Assembly (NCBI GenBank): GCA_900540175.1
Contig: UQFG01000012.1
Coordinates: 1-48,966, forward strand
Direction: 5' to 3'
DNA: 48,966 bases
Source: an uncultured Mollicutes bacterium
GTDB lineage: Bacteria > Bacillota_I > Bacilli_A > Acholeplasmatales > Anaeroplasmataceae
Position 1 is the first letter of the stretch; the number at the start of each line of letters is the position of its first letter. Shown here one piece after another: positions 29,731 through 40,190 of this stretch. The notes under the pieces are model-generated. The model ran no database searches. It was not told the origin of the DNA and worked only from the letters and a program-made list of their open reading frames with translations. The position numbers and the translations under genes were made by a program.

Positions 29731-29752
29731 AATAGCACTACAATAGCACTAC
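29731..29752 (+). repeat. Two tandem copies of an 11-bp repeat upstream of the helicase operon
   Basis: AATAGCACTAC occurs twice back to back (29731-29741, 29742-29752), about 20 bp before the -35 box of the operon promoter. Spaced one DNA helical turn apart, the copies could be a regulator's binding sites. Confidence 0.6.
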
Positions 29753-29772
29753 ACTACATAATGCTCTACATC

Positions 29773-29809
29773 TTGACAAAATGATGCGGGGGGGGGGTAT
29801 TATTATAGT
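29773..29809 (+). promoter_or_regulatory. Promoter with a G10 tract in the spacer
   Basis: A perfect TTGACA (29773-29778) is followed by a run of ten G (29788-29797) and then overlapping -10-like boxes: TATTAT (29798-29803), TATTAT (29801-29806) and TATAGT (29804-29809), at spacings of 19, 22 and 25 bp. The first box is the most usable; loss of two G would give the ideal 17 bp. G tracts at this place change length by slippage and switch genes on and off in other bacteria, for example porA of Neisseria meningitidis. The promoter boxes and tract are seen; switching is inferred. Confidence 0.7.
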
Positions 29810-29871
29810 AATGACTACTGACTTATTTTATGGGAAAATGTTTAAAAAAGAAAGCATGGGGAGTACATCAT

Positions 29872-32800
29872 ATGGGATATTTGTATCTAAACTTTACAGA
29901 GAACTTTGAACATGGAAGTAAAAGTTGGGATGACTTTTATACTAGCTCGCTTAAAGAGCAATACGAAAGATTAAAGCCTAAATTGGTGGGTGTTTATGTT
30001 GCTGACACATTTCAAGAATTTATAGCAAGTGTTTTTCCATCTATGGATAAGTATTATAACATTTCGCTTCCGGGATTTGACCGTAGCATGAAGGTCAATC
30101 ATAGAGGGAAACAATGTATTTATAATATTGTCATTCGTCCGGAAAAGGATAATATCTTGTCATATAGACTTCCAAGAAACTACGACATTATTATCATTGG
30201 TGATGTGACATTTGGAAATGTTATAGATATCACGATAAAAGGTATAGAACTGATTGATGTTAATGTAGCCAAATTTGGAGAAAAGCGAGTTTGTTGTACG
30301 GCCGCATGTGCTTTTAAAACGAAAACTTTTTTCGATAGAATGGGCAACAGCATAACTGTTCCCGATTACGGTGTACAAGAAATGCACGATTCTGTTTTTA
30401 CAAATGATTTCGTAAATGATTTGTGTATGAATTTATTTCCAGTACCGCATCCGCAAAAGGCTTTGGCCATATTTGATAAATGGCAAAAATATTTAAAGTT
30501 CCGCAGATATTATTTGGGAAAACAGTCCGAAAGCTGTGAGGAATTTCAAAACGTATCGGTTTGCGATTCTTTTATGATAACAAAGGATGTATTCAAACGT
30601 AATGAGGAAAAATACACGGAAATCTTACTTGACGGAATAGCGCAATTTGCAAAAGGCGAGCAGATAATTCTTTCAAAGGAAGTAGAAGGTGCAGACAGTT
30701 TTCCGCTTATAAGAGTAGATATTGAGTGCAATAGAAAATCGCTTTTTAGTGAAACGGTCGGTAAATTCGGCAAAGGTAAGCCGAAATATGAATCATGGTT
30801 GCAAAGATACACGCGAGATTCTATGGGGATATCGTCTACACAGCCGACGTATGATAAGAACGGAGATTTACCAAAAGGAGCAAGTTTTTTTCAATATCCT
30901 TTGGGTGAGAGATATTTATTTGCATTTGTGGATATAGAGCCTGATTGTTCGGCGCTTGAACGCGGATTTGAAAAGGATTGTTCAAATGAAAATAACCAGA
31001 TTGATCATAAATATGCAGGAATTATAAATAGCGCACTTAAAAGTTTTATAGTGGGACAAACAGAGTCGCTTTCTGCCTTTTACGATAAAAAGGTAGAGGA
31101 GTATCGTCAAGAACTTACCGCTAATTTGAAATGGGAAGTAGCAGAAAATAAGGATAAAGGAGTTGAGCGTGAATACGAGGCCGAAGTTGCAAGGCGTATC
31201 GCGCCAATTAAAGCAGAATACAAAAAACAAGAAAACGAGATCAACGATCAAATCAAAAGAATGAAACTGGCGGAAAAAAAGAAATCCGTCGTCTTTGACT
31301 TGGAAAAGAAATTGTCCGTTTGCAAGCAACAATATGAATTGAAAGTCGCAACGGTAAGGGAAAGGGTAGAGTTATTACCGTTCTACGTTGCTCGTAATGA
31401 TAGGCTTGTGGAACAGAAACGGAAAAGCTTGTCTATTGAATTACAAGCAGAACTCGATAAAATCAAAAAAGAGAAAAAATCTCAACTTGAAGTACAATAT
31501 AAAGGACAGATTACTAGCGAGAAATTGGCAGCGAAAGAAAAACTTGACCGCAAGTTTAAGGCAGATAAGGCAGAAAAAATCGAAAATGAAACAATCCGTA
31601 GGTATCAGATTTATTTCCGTCCCAATGATATAACCGCTAAAGTTCCCGAGATAAAAAAAGATATAGAAAAACGTTCCGCACATTATTTGACCTATGACAA
31701 TCGTGCAGAAAAAGCGAAAATAGAAAGACAAGAAAAGGCACTAAATGCATTTCTTTGTGGTTACATCAAAAATCCTTACTTGCCTGCATATTTATTTGCG
31801 CCAGAAATGCTTGCTCAAACGACGAAAACAGTTCAAAGAGAACCGGATTGGTGTTTGGAAAGTTTGAATGATCGTCAAAAAACGGCGGTTAAACGTGCGA
31901 TTTCAAGCGAAAGTATTTTCCTACTGCAAGGACCACCCGGCACAGGGAAAACACAGGTTATTGCAGAGATTACAGCACAACTTGTCAAACAGGGGAAGAA
32001 GGTTCTTATTTCATCTGAAACGCATAAGGCGATCGACAATGTATTTGAGCGACTTCCTAAAATACCCGAAATTAGACCATTGCGTCTTATTCCATCGCAA
32101 AACGGGAAAAAAACGAATTATAGCCCTGAACAGTTAGTAGATAATTTCTATCTGAATATAAGTCGTAACCTTGAACGACAAGTAAGCAGATTTGAACATT
32201 TTGAAGAAACAAAGGTTACCTTTGACGAAGAAATGAAGAAACTACGTTTTGAATACGATAAACTTCTGCGCTTAAAAATGGAAAATGCAAGAATCGAAAA
32301 TGAGCGAGATGAGATAAGTAAAGTTGTAAATGGACTTAATAACGAATTGCAATCCTTACGCAAAGATCGTACAGATGTTATCGATATTATTGACCAATAT
32401 CGGAGAACGATAAAATACATTGAGAGCTATCGTTTTTCCATAGAAGGTGTTAAAGAACAATATATAGACTTGTTTATTCGCAAGCTGAAAGAATTGTTGT
32501 CTAGCTATACTTGCTTTAAGGGTTGTCCTGTTGAAAAGGTAAGTGAACTCGCAAAAGCTGACCTCGGAATTATACGGGAAGAACTTTCGCTTGTTTTATC
32601 GGAAGAACATTTTGTTAAATTAAAAAATAAGCAAATCGAACTTCGTAAAATTTTGTCCGATTTACGTGATCCCATTACGGACGAGGTGCCTATTGAGGGG
32701 GAAGACAATTATGAAAATTATAAAAAATATCAGGCAGAATTGATTGAGGTTGGCAAAAAAATAAAGAGCACACAAAACCCTTCTTCCATAGATTTGTCGT

Positions 32801-33990
32801 CAAGTCTTGTATTTGCGATTGTTCCTACGATTACAGAGAATAAAGACCTTTTGCGTGAATTACCGGAACAATTAACTGCTTTCAAAATCAGCCTGCAATC
32901 ACTTATTTCGGAAATAAAAGCTGCGGTTGAAAAAGATATGCAACGCTACATAGAACAAGAGCGTGGCATTGCCGGGAAGATAGACGCAAAGCAGCTTGAG
33001 ATAAGCGATAAAAAGCATAGATACGAAGAACTTGGAAAAAATGCAGGAATAGAAGAATACGGGGATCTCAATTCTACGTTAAGACAGAAGATTACCCGTT
33101 TCTTCCGTGATTTCGACATTGTAAGAGAATACGATACAGACAACCTTGAAACGGCATTTGAAATAATCAAAGAGGAGTGGAATAAACTCGAAAACAACTA
33201 TAAAGCCACGAAAAAAGAAAATCAAACGAAGATACCCGTTTATAAAGCCATTTGCAAGTATCTGAGGCAAACAGATATTCTTGAAGAAGATCGGCAGGCA
33301 TATACAAGAGAATTGTATAATTGTGTAAATGTATTCGGAATTACTTGTACGAGTCGTGACAGATTTACCAAAAATCAGTTGGTTGAACTCGGAAAGTACG
33401 GTATCGATGATGTAGATATTCGTTCACAAGGAATAGATGTCGTAATAATCGATGAGGTTTCCAAGTCATCTTTTCTTGATTTGCTGATTCCTATTTTGTA
33501 CGGCAAGACGGTAATTTTAGTTGGAGATCACAGACAGTTGCCGCCTACGTATGATTTACGTTATCTACGAGAAAGTGATTTTGAAGGTCTTGATGAAGAT
33601 ATTATTAATGACAATATAAACATTGAATACACCAATTTATACGAAGAATGTTTCTTTAAGACCTTATACGAAAAAGTCTCCGAAGATTTCAGAGTAATGC
33701 TTAATAAACAGTATCGTTGCCATAGTCACATAATGGAAGTATTTAATCATTTCTACGGTGGTTCCCAAAAAGGGCTTGTCATAGGCAAGCAACAACAAGA
33801 TGACGAAAAAGCGCACAACTTAACGGTCAAGATAGGTGGGAATACTGTAATAGATCCGCAACATCATATCTATTTTGTAGATTGTGATCAAAAGGAATCA
33901 AGCGCTTATGAGGGAAGTACGTCAAAAATCAATGAACAGGAAGCGGAAGTTGCTATTGCTCTTTTGAAAGAACTACAAGGCAAGCAGTGA
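29872..33990 (+). CDS. Giant SF1 (UPF1/Dna2-like) helicase with coiled coils, N-terminal part of a split frame
   Basis: The frame has 1372 codons. ATG 29872 is preferred because GGGGAG lies 8 bp upstream; the ATG at 29830 has no ribosome site. Residues 1-420 are an unrecognised alpha/beta region; 420-590 is a long charged coiled coil (KKQENEINDQIKRMKLAEKK). The helicase begins near 660: Q-motif-like SLNDRQKTAVKRA, Walker A GPPGTGKTQ at about 688-696, motif Ia VLISSETHKAIDN. A coiled-coil arm of about 400 residues follows (about 750-1150), then motif II VVIIDEVSKSS at about 1190, motif III VGDHRQLPP at about 1218, and KQYRCHSHIMEVFNHFY. The frame stops before motif IV; the rest is at 33995-34480 in another frame. 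As read, this product lacks motifs IV-VI and cannot be a working helicase alone. Confidence 0.85.
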   Translation: MGYLYLNFTENFEHGSKSWDDFYTSSLKEQYERLKPKLVGVYVADTFQEFIASVFPSMDKYYNISLPGFDRSMKVNHRGKQCIYNIVIRPEKDNILSYRLPRNYDIIIIGDVTFGNVIDITIKGIELIDVNVAKFGEKRVCCTAACAFKTKTFFDRMGNSITVPDYGVQEMHDSVFTNDFVNDLCMNLFPVPHPQKALAIFDKWQKYLKFRRYYLGKQSESCEEFQNVSVCDSFMITKDVFKRNEEKYTEILLDGIAQFAKGEQIILSKEVEGADSFPLIRVDIECNRKSLFSETVGKFGKGKPKYESWLQRYTRDSMGISSTQPTYDKNGDLPKGASFFQYPLGERYLFAFVDIEPDCSALERGFEKDCSNENNQIDHKYAGIINSALKSFIVGQTESLSAFYDKKVEEYRQELTANLKWEVAENKDKGVEREYEAEVARRIAPIKAEYKKQENEINDQIKRMKLAEKKKSVVFDLEKKLSVCKQQYELKVATVRERVELLPFYVARNDRLVEQKRKSLSIELQAELDKIKKEKKSQLEVQYKGQITSEKLAAKEKLDRKFKADKAEKIENETIRRYQIYFRPNDITAKVPEIKKDIEKRSAHYLTYDNRAEKAKIERQEKALNAFLCGYIKNPYLPAYLFAPEMLAQTTKTVQREPDWCLESLNDRQKTAVKRAISSESIFLLQGPPGTGKTQVIAEITAQLVKQGKKVLISSETHKAIDNVFERLPKIPEIRPLRLIPSQNGKKTNYSPEQLVDNFYLNISRNLERQVSRFEHFEETKVTFDEEMKKLRFEYDKLLRLKMENARIENERDEISKVVNGLNNELQSLRKDRTDVIDIIDQYRRTIKYIESYRFSIEGVKEQYIDLFIRKLKELLSSYTCFKGCPVEKVSELAKADLGIIREELSLVLSEEHFVKLKNKQIELRKILSDLRDPITDEVPIEGEDNYENYKKYQAELIEVGKKIKSTQNPSSIDLSSSLVFAIVPTITENKDLLRELPEQLTAFKISLQSLISEIKAAVEKDMQRYIEQERGIAGKIDAKQLEISDKKHRYEELGKNAGIEEYGDLNSTLRQKITRFFRDFDIVREYDTDNLETAFEIIKEEWNKLENNYKATKKENQTKIPVYKAICKYLRQTDILEEDRQAYTRELYNCVNVFGITCTSRDRFTKNQLVELGKYGIDDVDIRSQGIDVVIIDEVSKSSFLDLLIPILYGKTVILVGDHRQLPPTYDLRYLRESDFEGLDEDIINDNINIEYTNLYEECFFKTLYEKVSEDFRVMLNKQYRCHSHIMEVFNHFYGGSQKGLVIGKQQQDDEKAHNLTVKIGGNTVIDPQHHIYFVDCDQKESSAYEGSTSKINEQEAEVAIALLKELQGKQ

Positions 33991-33994
33991 ACTT

Positions 33995-34480
33995 GTGAGA
34001 ACTGGCAAACTAAAGGTAGATGCCAAAAAGCTTATCGACGAAAGACCGAGTGTTGGAGTTATATGTACTTACGGTGATCAAGCTGGTTTAATCAAGAAGA
34101 AACGCAGGTATCAGCAGTTTTCTGGTTTCTCTCAAAAACAAGATGAGCGTTTGATTATAAGTACGGTTGATGACTTTCAGGGGGACGAAAGAGATATAAT
34201 CATTGTGTCAATGGTTCGTAATCCCACACCGGGGAAGCGCTTTGACGCAGAGTTTATCAAGAAGTTTGAACGTATCAACGTTGCGTTTTCGCGTGCCCGT
34301 AAGATGCTTATTATTGTAGGTGCAAAAAAGTTCCTTTCAGATGAGGGTATAATTGACCTTCCTGATCTTGAAGGCAATAAAGCGTTTGATAAGATAAATT
34401 TCCACGTTTATAAGGAAATAATTGATACTGTTTATTTCCGTGGACGTGTCCTTACAGCAAGCGATATTATAGGAGGTTGA
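33995..34480 (+). CDS. C-terminal part of the SF1 helicase (motifs IV-VI) in a shifted frame
   Basis: These 161 codons continue the helicase: SVGVICTYGDQAGLIKKK is motif IV, STVDDFQGDERDIIIVSMVR is motif V and RINVAFSRARKMLIIVGAKK is motif VI with its arginines. The frame is +1 relative to the 29872-33990 frame and stays open upstream past the stop at 33990, so one indel at about 33960-33990 would rejoin the two. GTG 33995 has only a weak, poorly spaced AAGG upstream. It is either a separately made half, a frameshifted gene, or a sequencing error. The next gene's ribosome site (AGGAGG) lies inside its last codons. Confidence 0.8.
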   Translation: MRTGKLKVDAKKLIDERPSVGVICTYGDQAGLIKKKRRYQQFSGFSQKQDERLIISTVDDFQGDERDIIIVSMVRNPTPGKRFDAEFIKKFERINVAFSRARKMLIIVGAKKFLSDEGIIDLPDLEGNKAFDKINFHVYKEIIDTVYFRGRVLTASDIIGG

Positions 34481-34482
34481 CA

Positions 34483-36696
34483 ATGAAAGATAACGTTATT
34501 AAGACCATTAAAACATCTTGCCCATTTCCTTTGCTTATCTATAAAACGAGCATTAGATATAATGAGGTCAGGAAAGCATCGGGGATATCATATATATTAC
34601 TCGAACTGATAGAAAAGTCGCATTCGTCAACCGAAAGGATATCCGAAATATTGTTGAAATTTGGAATACCTACCGATTTGCACTATATCTTTGGAAACGA
34701 ACTTGCTGTCTTAATCGGAACAGATATTATTACTTCTTGCTATAGGGCCGAACACTTTCGCAATCCGCGTTATTTTAGTGAAATACGAGTAGAAGACGTC
34801 TCATTAACAGAAAAAGGTCGCAAAATGTTCCGTGATGGTGCAATTCCGACAGGGGCAGAGAAAACAAAAGTAAAAAATATATACTTCGATCCAGTAAGTC
34901 GTAAATTTGATATAGATTTTTCGCTACCTTATTCGGATATTTCTAGTTCGTGTCTTGGCGAAGATTTTGTCGATACCATAGACATTGATATAAGTGGGAT
35001 GGAAGATTATATCAATGCAAACAAAAGTGAAATCGGCTTGAAAGCAGAGGAAATAATTGTTTCGTATCAAATCGAACAACCGCAAAAAAAAAGAACGTGT
35101 GCAGAGGAAAATATTTCGATCATTATAAAAAGTTCTGGTGTTGAATTTGTATTTGCGACGAGCAACGAAAATGCTTTTTTCAATAAGTATTATTCTTCTA
35201 ACATCATGAAAGAAGTAATGCTCATCAAAAAGAAATATAAGTTTTATAATGCTTTCGGTGAGCCTGCACAAGTTCCGACTATTCGCTATGAAGATTTAGG
35301 AAATGTAAATTTGTATATTCCAGACGATCTAATGAAACAGGCAGGTCGTCCTTGTAAGATATATATAAGTCGTAAGACTTTCAGCTACGAAAGAGTAGAT
35401 AATACAATTAAAATAGAAGGTGTTTGGGCGAATAAAATATTGAACAGGATAGATGAGAATGCAGAATTTGCCTTGTTAGAGGATTTTGGATGCAACTATT
35501 ATCGTGCTTTGAATGTTGCTATTCCTTGTAAGCAGTTCGGGGACACTTTTGAAATGCAATTGCTCGTCGAAAACACATTGCCACAAGATACTCTAAATAT
35601 GGTAATGCAAAGTATTTTTGAACTATATAAAGAGCAGTCTTGGAGTGACGAAGGTGGCAAGGTAATATTGTATGCAGTTGAAGTTTTGCATAAGCCTGAG
35701 TACTTTGAAGAATATACAGCCGTACAACTTAACAAGTGCAATACGGTGGATGAGAAAATCGGCGTGTTGTTGCAATTAAATAACGTATTTAAAAAAGCAG
35801 AAATGTGGAGACCATATTTTAAAAAGCTTTCAGAAACATTATTTTCGGAAAGCGTTTCGGAAATCAAACTTGATAATATGATTTACAAGAACACCGTATT
35901 GTCGCCGTTAAAGGATACGATGAATATATCCAATATAAATTATATATCAAGGTTTGCGGAAAATGTAAAAAAAGTTGAAGATCCTACGCTTGTCTATCAA
36001 GCACTTGAAACCGCAGGCTTTACTACCGAAGAAATACTGAGCGTTGTCAACGTGGTAGAAATTTATATCAAGGCTGTTCTTGATAACGAAAGCATTTTAG
36101 CCGATACGGAAATTGCTATGAAGTTTAATACGCTTCGGGTTAATCTTTGGAAGCTCAATGATATGTTGGGGATAGAAAATATATCAAATTATACAATTAA
36201 AGACGACTATAACGTGGACGAGTTCTTTGATGCATATAGTACGTTGATATCGACTTACAAAACGATTAAAAAATATAAGGAGTATGCAACAAAAGGCTAT
36301 GATGAGTTAAAAAGGTATGTGGATGTTTTTGATCCAATTCACGACTTGCTTTCTATTGAGAGAACTGCCTCGTCAGAACCCGACAAGATTACAGAGGAGT
36401 ATATAGATGAGCAAATTGTTCGTGGAAAGTATAAGGTCGCTATCTGTGATTTGCTTGTCAAGTTGCAATACGATTTGCGGCAGATACTGAATGAGGCAGC
36501 AATGCAGACAAATGAACTGATAGAAGAAGCAAGAAATCGAGAACTTATAGATAAAAAGCAGACAGCTTTGTTACATAAATTGCGAATTTGCAGAAATGGT
36601 TTACAACATCCAGAACGCAATCAAACGGTTTTTGATGGACAAACTATTTCGGAATGGAAGAATATAGTATTTTCAATTCGAGGAGGTAGGAAATGA
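34483..36696 (+). CDS. Unknown 737-residue protein with winged-helix-like start and HEPN-like C-terminal motif
   Basis: ATG 34483 follows AGGAGG with a 6-bp spacer. Residues 1-130 look like helix-turn-helix and wing (VRKASGISYILLELIEKS, then LTEKGRKMFRDGAIP). The middle (about 130-400) is beta-rich and the second half helical. Near the C-terminus LRICRNGLQHPE holds RNGLQH at about 704-709, which fits the R-N-x3-H (Rx4H) motif of HEPN domains, many of which are RNases in defence and toxin systems; others are inactive. The helix before it (QTNELIEEARNRELIDKKQT) fits a HEPN bundle. I recognise no full-length family. It overlaps the next start by four bases (ATGA). Confidence 0.7.
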   Translation: MKDNVIKTIKTSCPFPLLIYKTSIRYNEVRKASGISYILLELIEKSHSSTERISEILLKFGIPTDLHYIFGNELAVLIGTDIITSCYRAEHFRNPRYFSEIRVEDVSLTEKGRKMFRDGAIPTGAEKTKVKNIYFDPVSRKFDIDFSLPYSDISSSCLGEDFVDTIDIDISGMEDYINANKSEIGLKAEEIIVSYQIEQPQKKRTCAEENISIIIKSSGVEFVFATSNENAFFNKYYSSNIMKEVMLIKKKYKFYNAFGEPAQVPTIRYEDLGNVNLYIPDDLMKQAGRPCKIYISRKTFSYERVDNTIKIEGVWANKILNRIDENAEFALLEDFGCNYYRALNVAIPCKQFGDTFEMQLLVENTLPQDTLNMVMQSIFELYKEQSWSDEGGKVILYAVEVLHKPEYFEEYTAVQLNKCNTVDEKIGVLLQLNNVFKKAEMWRPYFKKLSETLFSESVSEIKLDNMIYKNTVLSPLKDTMNISNINYISRFAENVKKVEDPTLVYQALETAGFTTEEILSVVNVVEIYIKAVLDNESILADTEIAMKFNTLRVNLWKLNDMLGIENISNYTIKDDYNVDEFFDAYSTLISTYKTIKKYKEYATKGYDELKRYVDVFDPIHDLLSIERTASSEPDKITEEYIDEQIVRGKYKVAICDLLVKLQYDLRQILNEAAMQTNELIEEARNRELIDKKQTALLHKLRICRNGLQHPERNQTVFDGQTISEWKNIVFSIRGGRK

Positions 36697-37805
36697 GCCA
36701 ACAGGTTCAAATTAATTACAAACAGATCGCTTCGCAATGTCAAAGTGTTTGCGAGGTTGCCGAAGTAAGATTAAAAGAACTTGATGAGTTGCTTGTGAAG
36801 TTAAAGGAATCTTCAAGTAGTATTCTATCTTCGCGCTCGGAAGAATTAGAAAGGGCGATAGAACTTGAAAAGAAAAAACTTATCGCTCAAATTAAAGAGG
36901 TAAGGGAAAAAGCTGATAAGGACGCTAAACTCGGTCTCGTATATACAAATGATTACAATTTAAGAGACATTCATAGAAACGATACCTTAGCTGTTGCGAA
37001 AAGATTACAACAAACAGCAGATATCGTTGCTTCGAAACGGTTGATAGAATTCCAAACTCTTTTGACAACGCTTCTCGGTGAAAGCATTAATGGTATTTAT
37101 GATAAAATGCGTGAGCGCAATAGGGGAGTTGTAACAATAGACAGCATTACGCAAAGCGTACTTGATTCGATAGAAGATGTAACGTTGAAGCAGTTTGTTT
37201 ATATTGCATACTTGCAAGACAATACACTTGCGGACGATAATTTGATTGCCGCAGGCAGGGCTTTAATGGAAAGTGCATTAAACGCAACGTATGAATCACG
37301 ATACGAACAAGAAGTAGCAAAGATTCGCGCAGAACTTGAAGCGGCAAAAGTAGATAGGAACACCGTAGAGAAACTAATGGATGGTGCGATTGGTTCTGCT
37401 CGTGAAAGACTGACCACAGTACGCGAAGTTGCAACACAAGAAATCGTTGGCGAAAAAGTACGGCAAAAATCATTGCATATCATTATAGACGCAATTAAAA
37501 AGTACGGATTTATCGTCGATAAAAAGAATGTTAAAATCAAACGTGATACTAATGAAGTAATTTTAGTCGCGTTAAAAGCAAGCGGGCAAAAGGCAGAATT
37601 CAGAGTGTTTCTCGACGGGAAATTCATGTATGATTTTCGAGGATATGAAGGACAGGCTTGTCAAAAAGACATTGAACCTTTTATGCATGACTTAGAAGAA
37701 GTTTACGGTATTCACGTTACAAAACAAATAGAAATTTGGAGTAATCCGGATAAAATTTCCACAATGAAATATCAAGCTATGAATACAAATAAAAACAAAA
37801 AATAA
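36693..37805 (+). CDS. Coiled-coil protein of the island operon
   Basis: A 370-residue protein. Residues about 20-80 (CEVAEVRLKELDELLVKLKE, ELERAIELEKKKLIAQIKEV) and about 195-240 (RYEQEVAKIRAELEAAKVDR) are strong coiled coils. The C-terminal 120 residues are mixed alpha/beta (HIIIDAIKKYGFIVDKKNVK, KAEFRVFLDGKFMYDF) and may form a small globular domain. The ATG overlaps the preceding stop (ATGA) and GAGGTAGG lies before it, so translation is coupled. It probably holds the helicase, the 737-residue protein or the AAA+ protein together. No enzyme motif seen. Confidence 0.7.
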   Translation: MSQQVQINYKQIASQCQSVCEVAEVRLKELDELLVKLKESSSSILSSRSEELERAIELEKKKLIAQIKEVREKADKDAKLGLVYTNDYNLRDIHRNDTLAVAKRLQQTADIVASKRLIEFQTLLTTLLGESINGIYDKMRERNRGVVTIDSITQSVLDSIEDVTLKQFVYIAYLQDNTLADDNLIAAGRALMESALNATYESRYEQEVAKIRAELEAAKVDRNTVEKLMDGAIGSARERLTTVREVATQEIVGEKVRQKSLHIIIDAIKKYGFIVDKKNVKIKRDTNEVILVALKASGQKAEFRVFLDGKFMYDFRGYEGQACQKDIEPFMHDLEEVYGIHVTKQIEIWSNPDKISTMKYQAMNTNKNKK

Positions 37806-37815
37806 GGAGTAAAAC

Positions 37816-39648
37816 ATGGCACTCAGTACAACATTTAATCGGTTAAAAAGAGAAATCGGTATTAAAAAATGCGTTATCATTGACGGTAATGTCGGTGATG
37901 TCTATCTCAATGAGAAAAAGCAAATCGTTGACCTAAAACAATATCTTATGGATATGCTAAAAGACATGGAATATGATGACATGTTGTATTGGGATAGAAT
38001 TGACGGTGTGGACGGTGATGTATCCCGACTTTCCGTCATAGATGATGTCAAAGTAGAAGGAGAAGAATATTCTTTTGATGAAGATGAGGAAACATCTAAA
38101 GAAGACGAAAAGACAGGAAGTGGTCTATTCAAAGAACCGGAAGAGATTTTTAATATAGTTTTCAAGAATCTCAAAGCACCCAATCGCAAAATTGCTTTTG
38201 TTCTAAATTGGGCAGATTATCTGTTCACTACGGGTGGTCAGCTTCTGCCCGATGAAAGAAAAATGCTGACATTACTTGGGAAGGCAATCAAGGATAAAAA
38301 AGTGGAGTACTTATCTTCTGAAGTCAACGAGAGTACGGTTATTTTGATTACAAGCAAACTTGCTATGTTTCCAATTTCGTTTTATCAAAAGAATCCAGAG
38401 GTCGCTTGCCTTACACTTTCCAAACCGGACAGAGAAGAACGTGAAAAAATATTGGAAAAGATAGAAAGTGGGTTCGAAGTAAAACTTAAACCGGGTGAAA
38501 CACTTTTGACTTGTGACAAGAAGAACGAGTATGTGGATATGCTCGACGATTTTACAAACCGTGAAATTATACAAATGGCAAGGCTTTCACGCAAAGAAGA
38601 AAAATTACCGTTTGAACAACTATATTTGCTGTTTAAGTACGGTGAAAAAGACAATCCATGGGAAAAACTCGATTATAAAGCTGTAAAAAATATTAAAAAG
38701 ATACTTGGCGAGCGTATTGTTGGGCAGGAAGAAGCGATAGAGAAGATAGAGAAGGTTGTCGTAAAGGCTTATATGGGCCTTACGGGAATACATAAGTCGT
38801 CCAGTCGATCCGCACCAAAAGGCGTACTGTTCTTTGTCGGTCCTACGGGCGTTGGTAAAACCGAATTGTCAAAAGCACTTGCAAAATTTTTGTTTGGGGA
38901 TGAACAGGCGTGTATTCGTTTCGATATGTCGGAGTACGCACAGGAAAATAGCGATCAAAAACTCATCGGTGCACCTCCGGGATATGTCGGATATGAAGAA
39001 GGCGGTCAACTTACTAATGCCGTAAAGGAAAAACCGTTCAGTATTATCTTGTTTGACGAGATAGAAAAAGCAGCGAAACCCAATCCGAGAATACTTGATA
39101 TATTTTTGCAGATTCTTGAAGACGGTCGTTTGACGGATAGCAAGGGCGAAACTGTCTATTTTAGCGAAAGTATCATTATCTTTACATCCAATCTTGGTGC
39201 TTCTGAAGTTGCCTCAAACGGTACGAATGAAGAAATAGCGCAAGAGTTTATTAAGGTAGTAAAGAATTACTTTGACAATGAAATCAAGCGTCCCGAAATA
39301 CTTGGTCGTATTGGATACAATAACATTGTGCCGTTCAACTTTATCAAGGACAAAGAGTTCAGTATTAAAATTGCAAAGTCAAAACTGCGTCCCATTCAAA
39401 AGGCAATTGTTGAAAAGTACAGGATAGATCTTGAATTTGAAGATGAATTAAAGTTCATTAATTATATTCTTGGCGGAGCAGATAGCAGCAAGGGCGGTCG
39501 TGATATTCTGAATGCCATAAACGATAAGTTACTTGATGAACTTGCTATGTTTATGTTCGAAAACAAACAGGATTTGTTTGCAATGAAGGGCGCAAAAATT
39601 CTTGTAAAGACAACGAAGGACGGACTTGCGTTCAGTTTCGAAGAATGA
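37816..39648 (+). CDS. AAA+ ATPase: degenerate first domain, ClpB/HSP100-type second domain
   Basis: The 610-residue protein has two AAA+-like parts. Residues 1-300 begin KKCVIIDGNVGDVYLN and contain KIAFVLNWADYLF and STVILITSKLAMF, an AAA-like scaffold with no Walker A lysine, so probably non-catalytic. Residues about 305-600 are a full HSP100 D2-type module: Walker A GPTGVGKTE (about 343-351), pore loop GAPPGYVGYEEGGQ (about 386-399), Walker B IILFDEIEKA (about 410-419), sensor IIIFTSNLGA (about 455-464), arginine finger region RPEILGRIGYNNIVPF, then the small domain. The GYVG pore loop implies threading of a protein. The radical-SAM gene overlaps its stop by four bases. Confidence 0.88.
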   Translation: MALSTTFNRLKREIGIKKCVIIDGNVGDVYLNEKKQIVDLKQYLMDMLKDMEYDDMLYWDRIDGVDGDVSRLSVIDDVKVEGEEYSFDEDEETSKEDEKTGSGLFKEPEEIFNIVFKNLKAPNRKIAFVLNWADYLFTTGGQLLPDERKMLTLLGKAIKDKKVEYLSSEVNESTVILITSKLAMFPISFYQKNPEVACLTLSKPDREEREKILEKIESGFEVKLKPGETLLTCDKKNEYVDMLDDFTNREIIQMARLSRKEEKLPFEQLYLLFKYGEKDNPWEKLDYKAVKNIKKILGERIVGQEEAIEKIEKVVVKAYMGLTGIHKSSSRSAPKGVLFFVGPTGVGKTELSKALAKFLFGDEQACIRFDMSEYAQENSDQKLIGAPPGYVGYEEGGQLTNAVKEKPFSIILFDEIEKAAKPNPRILDIFLQILEDGRLTDSKGETVYFSESIIIFTSNLGASEVASNGTNEEIAQEFIKVVKNYFDNEIKRPEILGRIGYNNIVPFNFIKDKEFSIKIAKSKLRPIQKAIVEKYRIDLEFEDELKFINYILGGADSSKGGRDILNAINDKLLDELAMFMFENKQDLFAMKGAKILVKTTKDGLAFSFEE

Positions 39649-40190
39649 TTAAATTTAATATCGCAAGTATCAACCAGTGTACGGAAGTCGAAGGGCCGTA
39701 TAAAAGACTGTGTATATGGTTTCAGGGTTGCAACATTATTTGTAAAGGGTGTTGTAATCCCGATTACCAACCGCTTGTGCCGAAAAATATTCTTTCACTT
39801 GCAGAACTTGTTTCGATAATAACAAAAGCAAAAGATCAATTCGGTATTGAAGGAGTTACTTATTCCGGTGGCGAACCGACTTTGCAACAAGGGCTGCCTT
39901 ACTTAACCGAAGAAATCCATCAATTAGGCTTGGGAGTTATATCGTTTACCGGTAGAAAGTATGAGATGGTAAAAGATATTCTATTCGGTTGTGATGTTGT
40001 GTTTGATGGCGAATTCATAGAAGATAGAGCAGATAATCATCGCAAAATACTCGGTTCTACTAATCAGCGCATTCTATGCTTGACGGATAGATATCGCAAT
40101 TGTATCAACGATTGGTTTAATAAAAGGGAATGCTTAACGGCGGAAGTAAATCTCGGCAATCAAATATCCATTAATGGGGATAAAATTTAA
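39645..40190 (+). CDS. NrdG-like radical-SAM protein
   Basis: The 181-residue protein has the compact size and layout of the anaerobic ribonucleotide reductase activase NrdG. The cluster motif is C29-x3-C33-x2-C36 in FQGCNIICKGCC, the SAM-binding GGE motif is in TYSGGEPTLQQG at about 76-87, and a further conserved block reads FGCDVVFDGEFIEDRADNH. There is no nrdD nearby; instead the gene is translationally coupled (ATGA) to the ClpB-type AAA+ gene. It may make a glycyl or other radical on a protein of this system, or use SAM differently. It ends the operon. Confidence 0.88.
   Translation: MIKFNIASINQCTEVEGPYKRLCIWFQGCNIICKGCCNPDYQPLVPKNILSLAELVSIITKAKDQFGIEGVTYSGGEPTLQQGLPYLTEEIHQLGLGVISFTGRKYEMVKDILFGCDVVFDGEFIEDRADNHRKILGSTNQRILCLTDRYRNCINDWFNKRECLTAEVNLGNQISINGDKI

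Follow-up and report, generated by a model that had tools for sequence, protein, structure and literature searches.

A patchily distributed operon of an SF1 helicase, a protein with exchangeable C-termini, a coiled-coil protein, an HSP100-type ATPase and a radical-SAM enzyme is probably an undescribed defence-like system

We analysed a 48,966-nucleotide stretch of DNA from an uncultured Mollicutes bacterium of the Anaeroplasmataceae (GenBank assembly GCA_900540175.1, contig UQFG01000012.1; hereafter the window), and present here an operon of five genes on its forward (+) strand, at 29830-40190, that encode a superfamily 1 (SF1) helicase, a protein that we refer to as gene 2, a coiled-coil (CC) protein, an HSP100-type ATPase (AAA) and a radical-SAM (rSAM) enzyme. 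These genes keep the same order in unrelated genomes, and the trees of four of them agree. The set is probably an undescribed defence-like system. That it is a horizontally moving, probably phase-variable conflict system resembling phage defence is a reading to which we give about even chances, and the order of events inside the machine is held with less confidence than its role in conflict or defence.

Searches at E 0.001 recovered 583 gene 2 relatives and 556 CC relatives (among ~8,000 scored candidates each), together with at least 7,999 AAA relatives. We examined 31 distinct loci with a CC gene, of which L007-L013 came from one scan of genome contigs, L068 and L041-L057 from two class samples, L100 from a family sample and the rest from five plasmid lineages with one record each (Moellerella, Photobacterium, Polaromonas, Acinetobacter and Leisingera). 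The order helicase, gene 2, CC, AAA, rSAM was found in 28 of the 31 (L007-L010, L012, L042-L057, L068, L100 and the five plasmid lineages), counting L009, whose helicase extends past the contig end, and L042, whose rSAM open reading frame (ORF) is short (85 aa). The remaining three are L011 and L013, which are cut by contig ends, and L041, a decayed copy without the helicase, gene 2 and the start of the CC gene. The hosts of the five-gene set comprise Clostridia, Anaeroplasmataceae, mollicute-like genomes that read TGA as tryptophan (TGA=Trp), and alpha-, beta- and gammaproteobacterial plasmids. An earlier reading of the window from its letters alone (the sequence-only reading) had staked its proposal of a joint system on the co-occurrence of these genes in unrelated genomes, and the range from Clostridia to proteobacterial plasmids bears this out. 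A search of plasmids with the CC protein gave 10 records, six of them Moellerella, and the 12 plasmid records with at least 80% AAA coverage at one place were these 10 plus Aristaeella and Caballeronia. The Acinetobacter copy (L004) is complete and lies on a plasmid named pNDM1_010055.

The genes have also been inherited together. Trees of the helicase, CC, AAA and rSAM proteins from 22 loci give the same five groups: the five Proteobacteria, those together with L068, four Clostridia-type loci, those together with L043 and L100, and ten TGA=Trp loci. Rank correlations between gene-tree distances were 0.81-0.94, and for the two pairs put to a permutation test the observed value was attained in 0 of 500 permutations. 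Occurrence within sampled groups is patchy, since the CC profile was found in 2 of 391 genomes of the class of L007, 18 of 296 of the class of L010 and 2 of 55 of the family of L010. In Mesomycoplasma hyorhinis (L119 3441-10795) the annotation splits the helicase and AAA protein into several short genes and lists no rSAM, and the locus looks decayed.

Gene 2 (34477-36696, +; 739 aa) has an N-domain common to its homologues, a helical middle and a C-terminal HEPN part, and it is this C-terminus that varies. The sequence-only reading had called the protein HEPN-like. A motif R-[NDH]-x3-H lies in the last 120 residues of 31/31 HEPN-type homologues and nowhere earlier in those proteins, which were gathered as homologues and are thus mutually dependent; in the window it reads R706-N-x3-H711 (36592-36609, +), with R706, N707 and H711 invariant in a 28-row alignment. 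The HEPN review, in the passages that bear on this, defines the superfamily by an Rx4-6H motif with a polar residue after R, a pattern that all these Clostridia-type C-termini show, and treats DUF4145 as a HEPN family (PMC3710099). Pfam DUF4145 indeed matches gene 2 of one relative, L043 (E 4e-5). Pfam itself gives no HEPN call on the window protein; the assignment stands on the motif and on this relative. In 5 of 5 plasmid copies the C-terminus is instead PIN_4 (Pfam), with acidic residues invariant at four columns, and a third type, discussed below, has neither. The N-terminal 110-180 columns align in all three pairings of the types (hhalign E 2.1e-5 to 3.4e-5, probability 72-77%); these are single-comparison E values, each moderate alone, and the same region is recovered each time. 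Because this region is common to the three types, alignment points to a single N-domain that bears exchangeable ends: HEPN, PIN_4 or neither recognised. An AlphaFold model of gene 2 has a pLDDT of 87, with a helical C-terminus at ~65-90, and gene 2 of L010 is ~52% identical.

The helicase is read in two frames in the window. Its N-terminal part and most of the core (29830-33990, +; AAA_11, a long insert and the start of AAA_12 by Pfam) lie in one ORF, and the C-terminal part with the end of AAA_12 (33995-34480, +) lies in the next. As a single ORF of 1466-1546 aa encodes the helicase in six relatives (L007-L010, L012 and L013, that of L009 beginning at a contig end), the window copy is, on this comparison, frameshifted, either by mutation or by assembly error. 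No A/T run of at least 9 nt and no G/C run of at least 7 nt lies at the break (33970-34000). The closest solved structures to the helicase of L007 are SMUBP-2, DNA2, SEN1 and UPF1/NAM7. Since the helicase of relatives begins at residue 15 of the window protein and their gene 2 at residue 3, the starts listed for both genes are probably upstream of the true ones, which likely lie at 29872 and 34483.

The CC protein (36693-37805, +; 370 aa) is modelled, with modest confidence, as helical and then alpha/beta, the latter being a conserved C-terminal domain (residues ~248-358) with a motif [YF]-x-G-x2-[C/H]-x2-D in 21/22 loci. The form Y-x-G-x2-C-x2-D occurs in 12/22; all ten aligned TGA=Trp loci have His in place of the Cys, one has Asn in place of the Gly, and the rSAM motif is kept in these loci. 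These His-for-Cys copies belong to the same TGA=Trp clade as the gene 2 proteins without a recognised nuclease. The AAA protein (37816-39648, +; 610 aa) is HSP100/ClpB-like, with matches to ClpB (NCBIfam, E 3e-74) and DolB (PADLOC, E 2.8e-21). Its N-terminal half is AAA-like and lacks a Walker A, and the C-terminal D2 is complete in 12/12 aligned sequences, with Walker A and B, a GYVG pore loop, an arginine finger and sensor 2. Among five Clostridia-type copies AAA is 88-91% identical, against 51-61% for gene 2 of the same copies; it evolves far slower than its operon partners at large (50-72%). The rSAM (39645-40190, +; 181 aa) is of the glycyl-radical-enzyme activase type, with CX3CX2C (39729-39752 in the window) in 22/22 loci and an activase-type N-terminal signature; its family profile is nearest in the PDB to pyruvate formate-lyase (PFL) activase (E 3e-16).

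Upstream of the helicase lies a promoter of unusual build. A candidate phase-variable promoter at 29773-29803 (+) consists of TTGACA (29773-29778), 9 nt followed by ten G (G10, 29788-29797), and TATTAT (29798-29803), so that the G10 tract sits inside a 19-nt spacer; repeated ACTACA/CTACA boxes, read from the sequence, lie 5' of it (29736-29772, +). G10 is the sole G/C run of at least 7 nt in the window, where 0.017 G runs of at least 10 nt are expected. A consensus promoter scan did not list the site; it allowed spacers of 16-18 nt only. The L010 copy, also from the Anaeroplasmataceae, has TTGACA-9 nt-G11-TATAAT 217 bp upstream of its helicase (L010 5090-5170), again with ACTACA boxes on the 5' side, and a further G-tract promoter of that genome has one such box upstream. 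Slipped-strand switching at spacer homopolymers is established biology, and a bifidobacterial ON/OFF slippage switch has reportedly been described. With a homopolymer between -35 and -10 in both the window (G10) and L010 (G11), the promoter is probably phase-variable, and would switch expression of the operon. In the L010 genome nine-G tracts occur at five places and the exact promoter pattern three times (reversed control, 0 times): before the five-gene operon, before an operon with two TIR proteins and before Flg_new-repeat surface proteins. The own promoter claimed by the sequence-only reading is present, and is more unusual than had been noted.

The set behind the second of these sites (L101 603-13627), ~20 kb from the five-gene operon, comprises eight same-strand genes, among them those for two TIR_2 proteins, of which one carries a fused methyltransferase domain, for an RyR-domain protein and, by eye, for a ParA-like one, and is possibly a further undescribed defence system. 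Giant repeat-rich or signal-bearing surface-type proteins stand behind the same promoter type at L102 9745-15420 and L124 3527-11821. Four relatives with no G tract have a homologous upstream gene of 172-178 aa, HTH-like (helix-turn-helix) by eye (L007 4757-5293, L012 1843-2361, L013 4911-5429 and L042 1990-2526), whose copies are 51-72% identical to that of L007.

As to layout, the spacings that follow the end of the helicase are, in order, -4, -4, +10 and -4 bp, a run as tight as had been claimed. The operon is richer in A/T than its flanks, with a GC content of 0.353-0.382 against 0.412-0.436, and of 0.31-0.36 against 0.44-0.50 at third codon positions (n = 5 flanking genes measured). By NCBIfam the upstream flank holds a hydrogenase, a polygalacturonase and a transporter, and the downstream flank a type III pantothenate kinase and a CshA-like helicase; these are ordinary genes, as the claim of core genes on either side had it, and 3 of the 10 flanking genes scanned have no NCBIfam match at E 1e-15. 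The closest relatives retrieved for the window operon are from gut-type Clostridia. The sequence-only reading is confirmed in its layout, composition and domain families (AAA_11/AAA_12 helicase, ClpB-type AAA_2, Fer4_12/Radical_SAM); corrections concern the helicase, read in two frames, and probably the listed starts of helicase and gene 2.

Some relatives lie near known defence or mobile genes: type IIG restriction genes at L012, a serine recombinase at L013, AbiEii at L100 and, by eye, an integrase-like ORF at L068. We compared 16 neighbour regions from the family of L010, where the right-hand neighbour gene was matched at E 0.001 in 53/55 genomes and below E 1e-90 in 47 of these. The slot bounded by two left neighbours and a right NUDIX gene holds the operon plus two genes in L010, a surface-protein gene in L103 and L105 (L103 checked by Pfam) and six other genes in L104. 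L106 begins inside a surface-protein-cluster gene, and the other 12 regions differ on the left and so are uninformative on the slot. L100 has a diverged version of the operon, with the right flank of L010 and a different left flank, beside AbiEii.

No named system matches the set in PADLOC (2023 version), NCBIfam or the PubMed Central open subset, supplementary tables lying outside that search; a match to a named system was the other finding that the sequence-only reading had set against itself. PADLOC gives partial matches and the helicase family MkoA, its nearest defence profile (E 2e-56 for the N part in the window, 7e-87 for L007 and 7e-102 for L001). MkoA belongs to Mokosh, in which type I has a Ser/Thr kinase and type II pairs the helicase with a PLD (phospholipase D) nuclease (MkoC). 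Neither a kinase nor a PLD domain, in contrast, is among the families listed for the window proteins, and the operon has extra genes and bears its nuclease, HEPN or PIN in type, on a separate protein. A giant SF1 helicase coupled to a nuclease is likewise common to the operon and to Hhe, the name NCBIfam gives to an anti-phage DUF4011 protein, in which DUF4011 and a Vsr/MTES-type nuclease form part of one helicase polypeptide. Here the window differs in that its helicase pieces score 32 and 25 against an Hhe cut-off of 2000 and lack DUF4011 and MTES_1575 (Pfam E 0.1; best 25 of 26 families for the large piece), and in the additional gene 2 and CC gene. The complete D2-type AAA ring is common to ClpB/ClpC and Dodola DolB, from which the operon AAA differs in its N-half without Walker A and its place in a helicase operon; no DolA match was found among the proteins scanned, and the likeness to Dodola is in AAA only. 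The rSAM has CX3CX2C and the activase-type signature in common with NrdG and PFL activase. It matches NCBIfam NrdG at E 2e-20 with 73 bits, below the equivalog cut-off of 126, and the operon contains no glycyl-radical enzyme. Viperin (pVip) profiles match it weakly and in part (best E 1e-6). As the sequence-only reading had supposed, no PADLOC profile of BREX, DISARM, Zorya, Druantia, Wadjet or Dnd/Ssp matches the six window ORFs at E 0.1. In PADLOC gene 2 has no match and CC a single, marginal one to DpdD (E 0.0019); matches to Dpd are confined to weak DpdJ and DpdD fragments, without the DpdA and partners that define it.

The AAA and rSAM pair also occurs outside the operon. The AAA N-half profile was found in 6/391 genomes of one class, two with and four without a CC gene, and all four CC-less loci (L064-L067) have a nearby rSAM gene of the same family. 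At L065 a PP2C-like protein (by eye) and then a kinase-profile protein follow, L067 is alike by eye, and L064 is a short stretch. On plasmids, L005, L020 and L022 have AAA and rSAM beside giant DUF4011-SF1-MTES_1575 proteins, with a kinase domain at L020 and L022, and at L021 AAA is accompanied by a protein that has the C-terminal domain of CC, with no rSAM in the fetched stretch. Several of the loci L064-L067, L005, L020 and L022 have kinase, phosphatase-like and MSGPK-type coiled-coil genes, a related set to which no name was matched.

How the parts may work together we infer at every functional step, defence and switching included; the sensor, RNase effector and remodelling or modification module of the sequence-only reading are plausible. 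The UPF1-like SF1 helicase would engage foreign or aberrant RNA (or RNA:DNA); gene 2 would dock by its conserved N-domain and deliver a replaceable RNase, HEPN here and PIN elsewhere; the CC protein and the HSP100 motor with one active ring may remodel or thread a partner, by which the effector is armed or reset; the activase-type rSAM would modify a protein of the complex; and the poly-G promoter would restrict expression of the operon, which may be toxic to its own cell, to a fraction of the population. A conflict system is suggested by exchangeable RNases on a shared adaptor, the UPF1-like helicase, the patchiness and the plasmids, and by decayed or frameshifted copies, the variable slot, some defence neighbours and a promoter type that a TIR operon and surface proteins also have. 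The recurrence of the AAA and rSAM pair beside DUF4011-SF1-MTES_1575 proteins, given the anti-phage DUF4011 protein Hhe, speaks for it too.

Several results weigh against such a role. In 15 of the 28 complete loci (14 TGA=Trp and L068) gene 2 has no recognised nuclease: none of the 14 TGA=Trp loci has the HEPN motif (the Pfam scan covered three of them), and PIN-only and HEPN-only profiles, with controls at E 2e-38 or better, gave no gene 2 below E 0.3 in any of the 15. The effector would there be missing or unrecognised, and an RNase is thus not universal to the set. Foldseek/VIA-align on the whole gene 2 model, in which mainly residues 367-509 were tested, did not recover a HEPN fold. The apparent frameshift leaves the function of the window copy in question. 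Phage records searched with the CC protein yielded no copy, nor did viral contigs in a pattern-based search with gene 2 or CC, and 5,426 E. coli genomes had no place covering 80% of a 3.9-kb Moellerella query at the DNA level. The G-tract promoter is seen in two operon copies only: a G/C run of at least 7 nt is absent upstream of 26/27 relatives (L010 being the exception), the exact pattern occurs in 1/55 family genomes, i.e. in none of the other 54, and the form that also fits the window occurs in 1/391 class genomes, where it precedes a protein of 2,736 aa whose N-terminus is signal-like. Lastly, leuS lies in the fetched region of 10/14 TGA=Trp loci (7 upstream, 3 downstream), 4 of the 14 share a ferritin gene and five share a ~600-aa gene downstream, which a sixth (L056) has in pieces; because these genes recur beside the operon, the set looks vertically kept at one site in this clade. 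It is the loci without a recognised nuclease, this vertical-looking placement and a function read from its parts that limit the conflict reading.

That placement, together with the nearest solved relatives of the helicase (SMUBP-2, DNA2, SEN1, UPF1/NAM7) and the constancy of AAA, as if bound to conserved host machinery, would also suit a cellular complex for RNA surveillance or the quality control of stalled translation, like UPF1 with the PIN nuclease SMG6 and joined by an HSP100 motor, serving ordinary growth. We consider this unlikely, if still the strongest of the alternatives, as the set is patchy in the sampled classes and family, is carried by plasmids and has decayed or frameshifted copies, and as its G-tract promoter is one common to surface proteins and a TIR operon. 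The tight gene spacing would fit equally a stress or dormancy module that is not aimed at phages, in which a toxin-like RNase is held by the other proteins, and HEPN and PIN are among the common toxin RNases in the passages of the HEPN review that treat them (PMC3710099). Yet the operon has no antitoxin-like small gene, consists of five large ATP-consuming or redox parts and shows no recognised nuclease in over half of its complete loci, and the prospects of this explanation are poor. Least probable, and improbable by a wide measure, is a glycyl-radical machine in which the conserved Y-x-G in the C-terminal domain of the CC protein receives a radical from the rSAM. The likeness to PFL activase, the invariant CX3CX2C and the Y-x-G-x2-C-x2-D of 12 loci speak for it, but the rSAM motif is still kept in the ten TGA=Trp loci with Cys to His and the one with Gly to Asn, and hosts such as Acinetobacter and Polaromonas are aerobes.

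To conclude, if the conflict reading is true, the known systems would gain a widespread one of several genes, with a helicase-RNase pair served by an HSP100 motor and an rSAM enzyme, a combination that was not found in the defence catalogues and literature searched. More tentatively, and with the balance tilted against it, these loci could represent immune machinery of a new class, with a CC/HSP100/rSAM core as its reusable engine. One branch would couple this core to a UPF1-like helicase with exchangeable RNases, another to kinase-phosphatase signalling together with DUF4011 helicase-nucleases; radical chemistry would serve to arm a protein; and the defence operons and surface proteins of some gut bacteria would form a regulon under a switching poly-G promoter. 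The natural swap of HEPN and PIN on one conserved domain offers a clean handle on effector modularity, and the shared poly-G promoter suggests that such systems may be under population-level on/off control.

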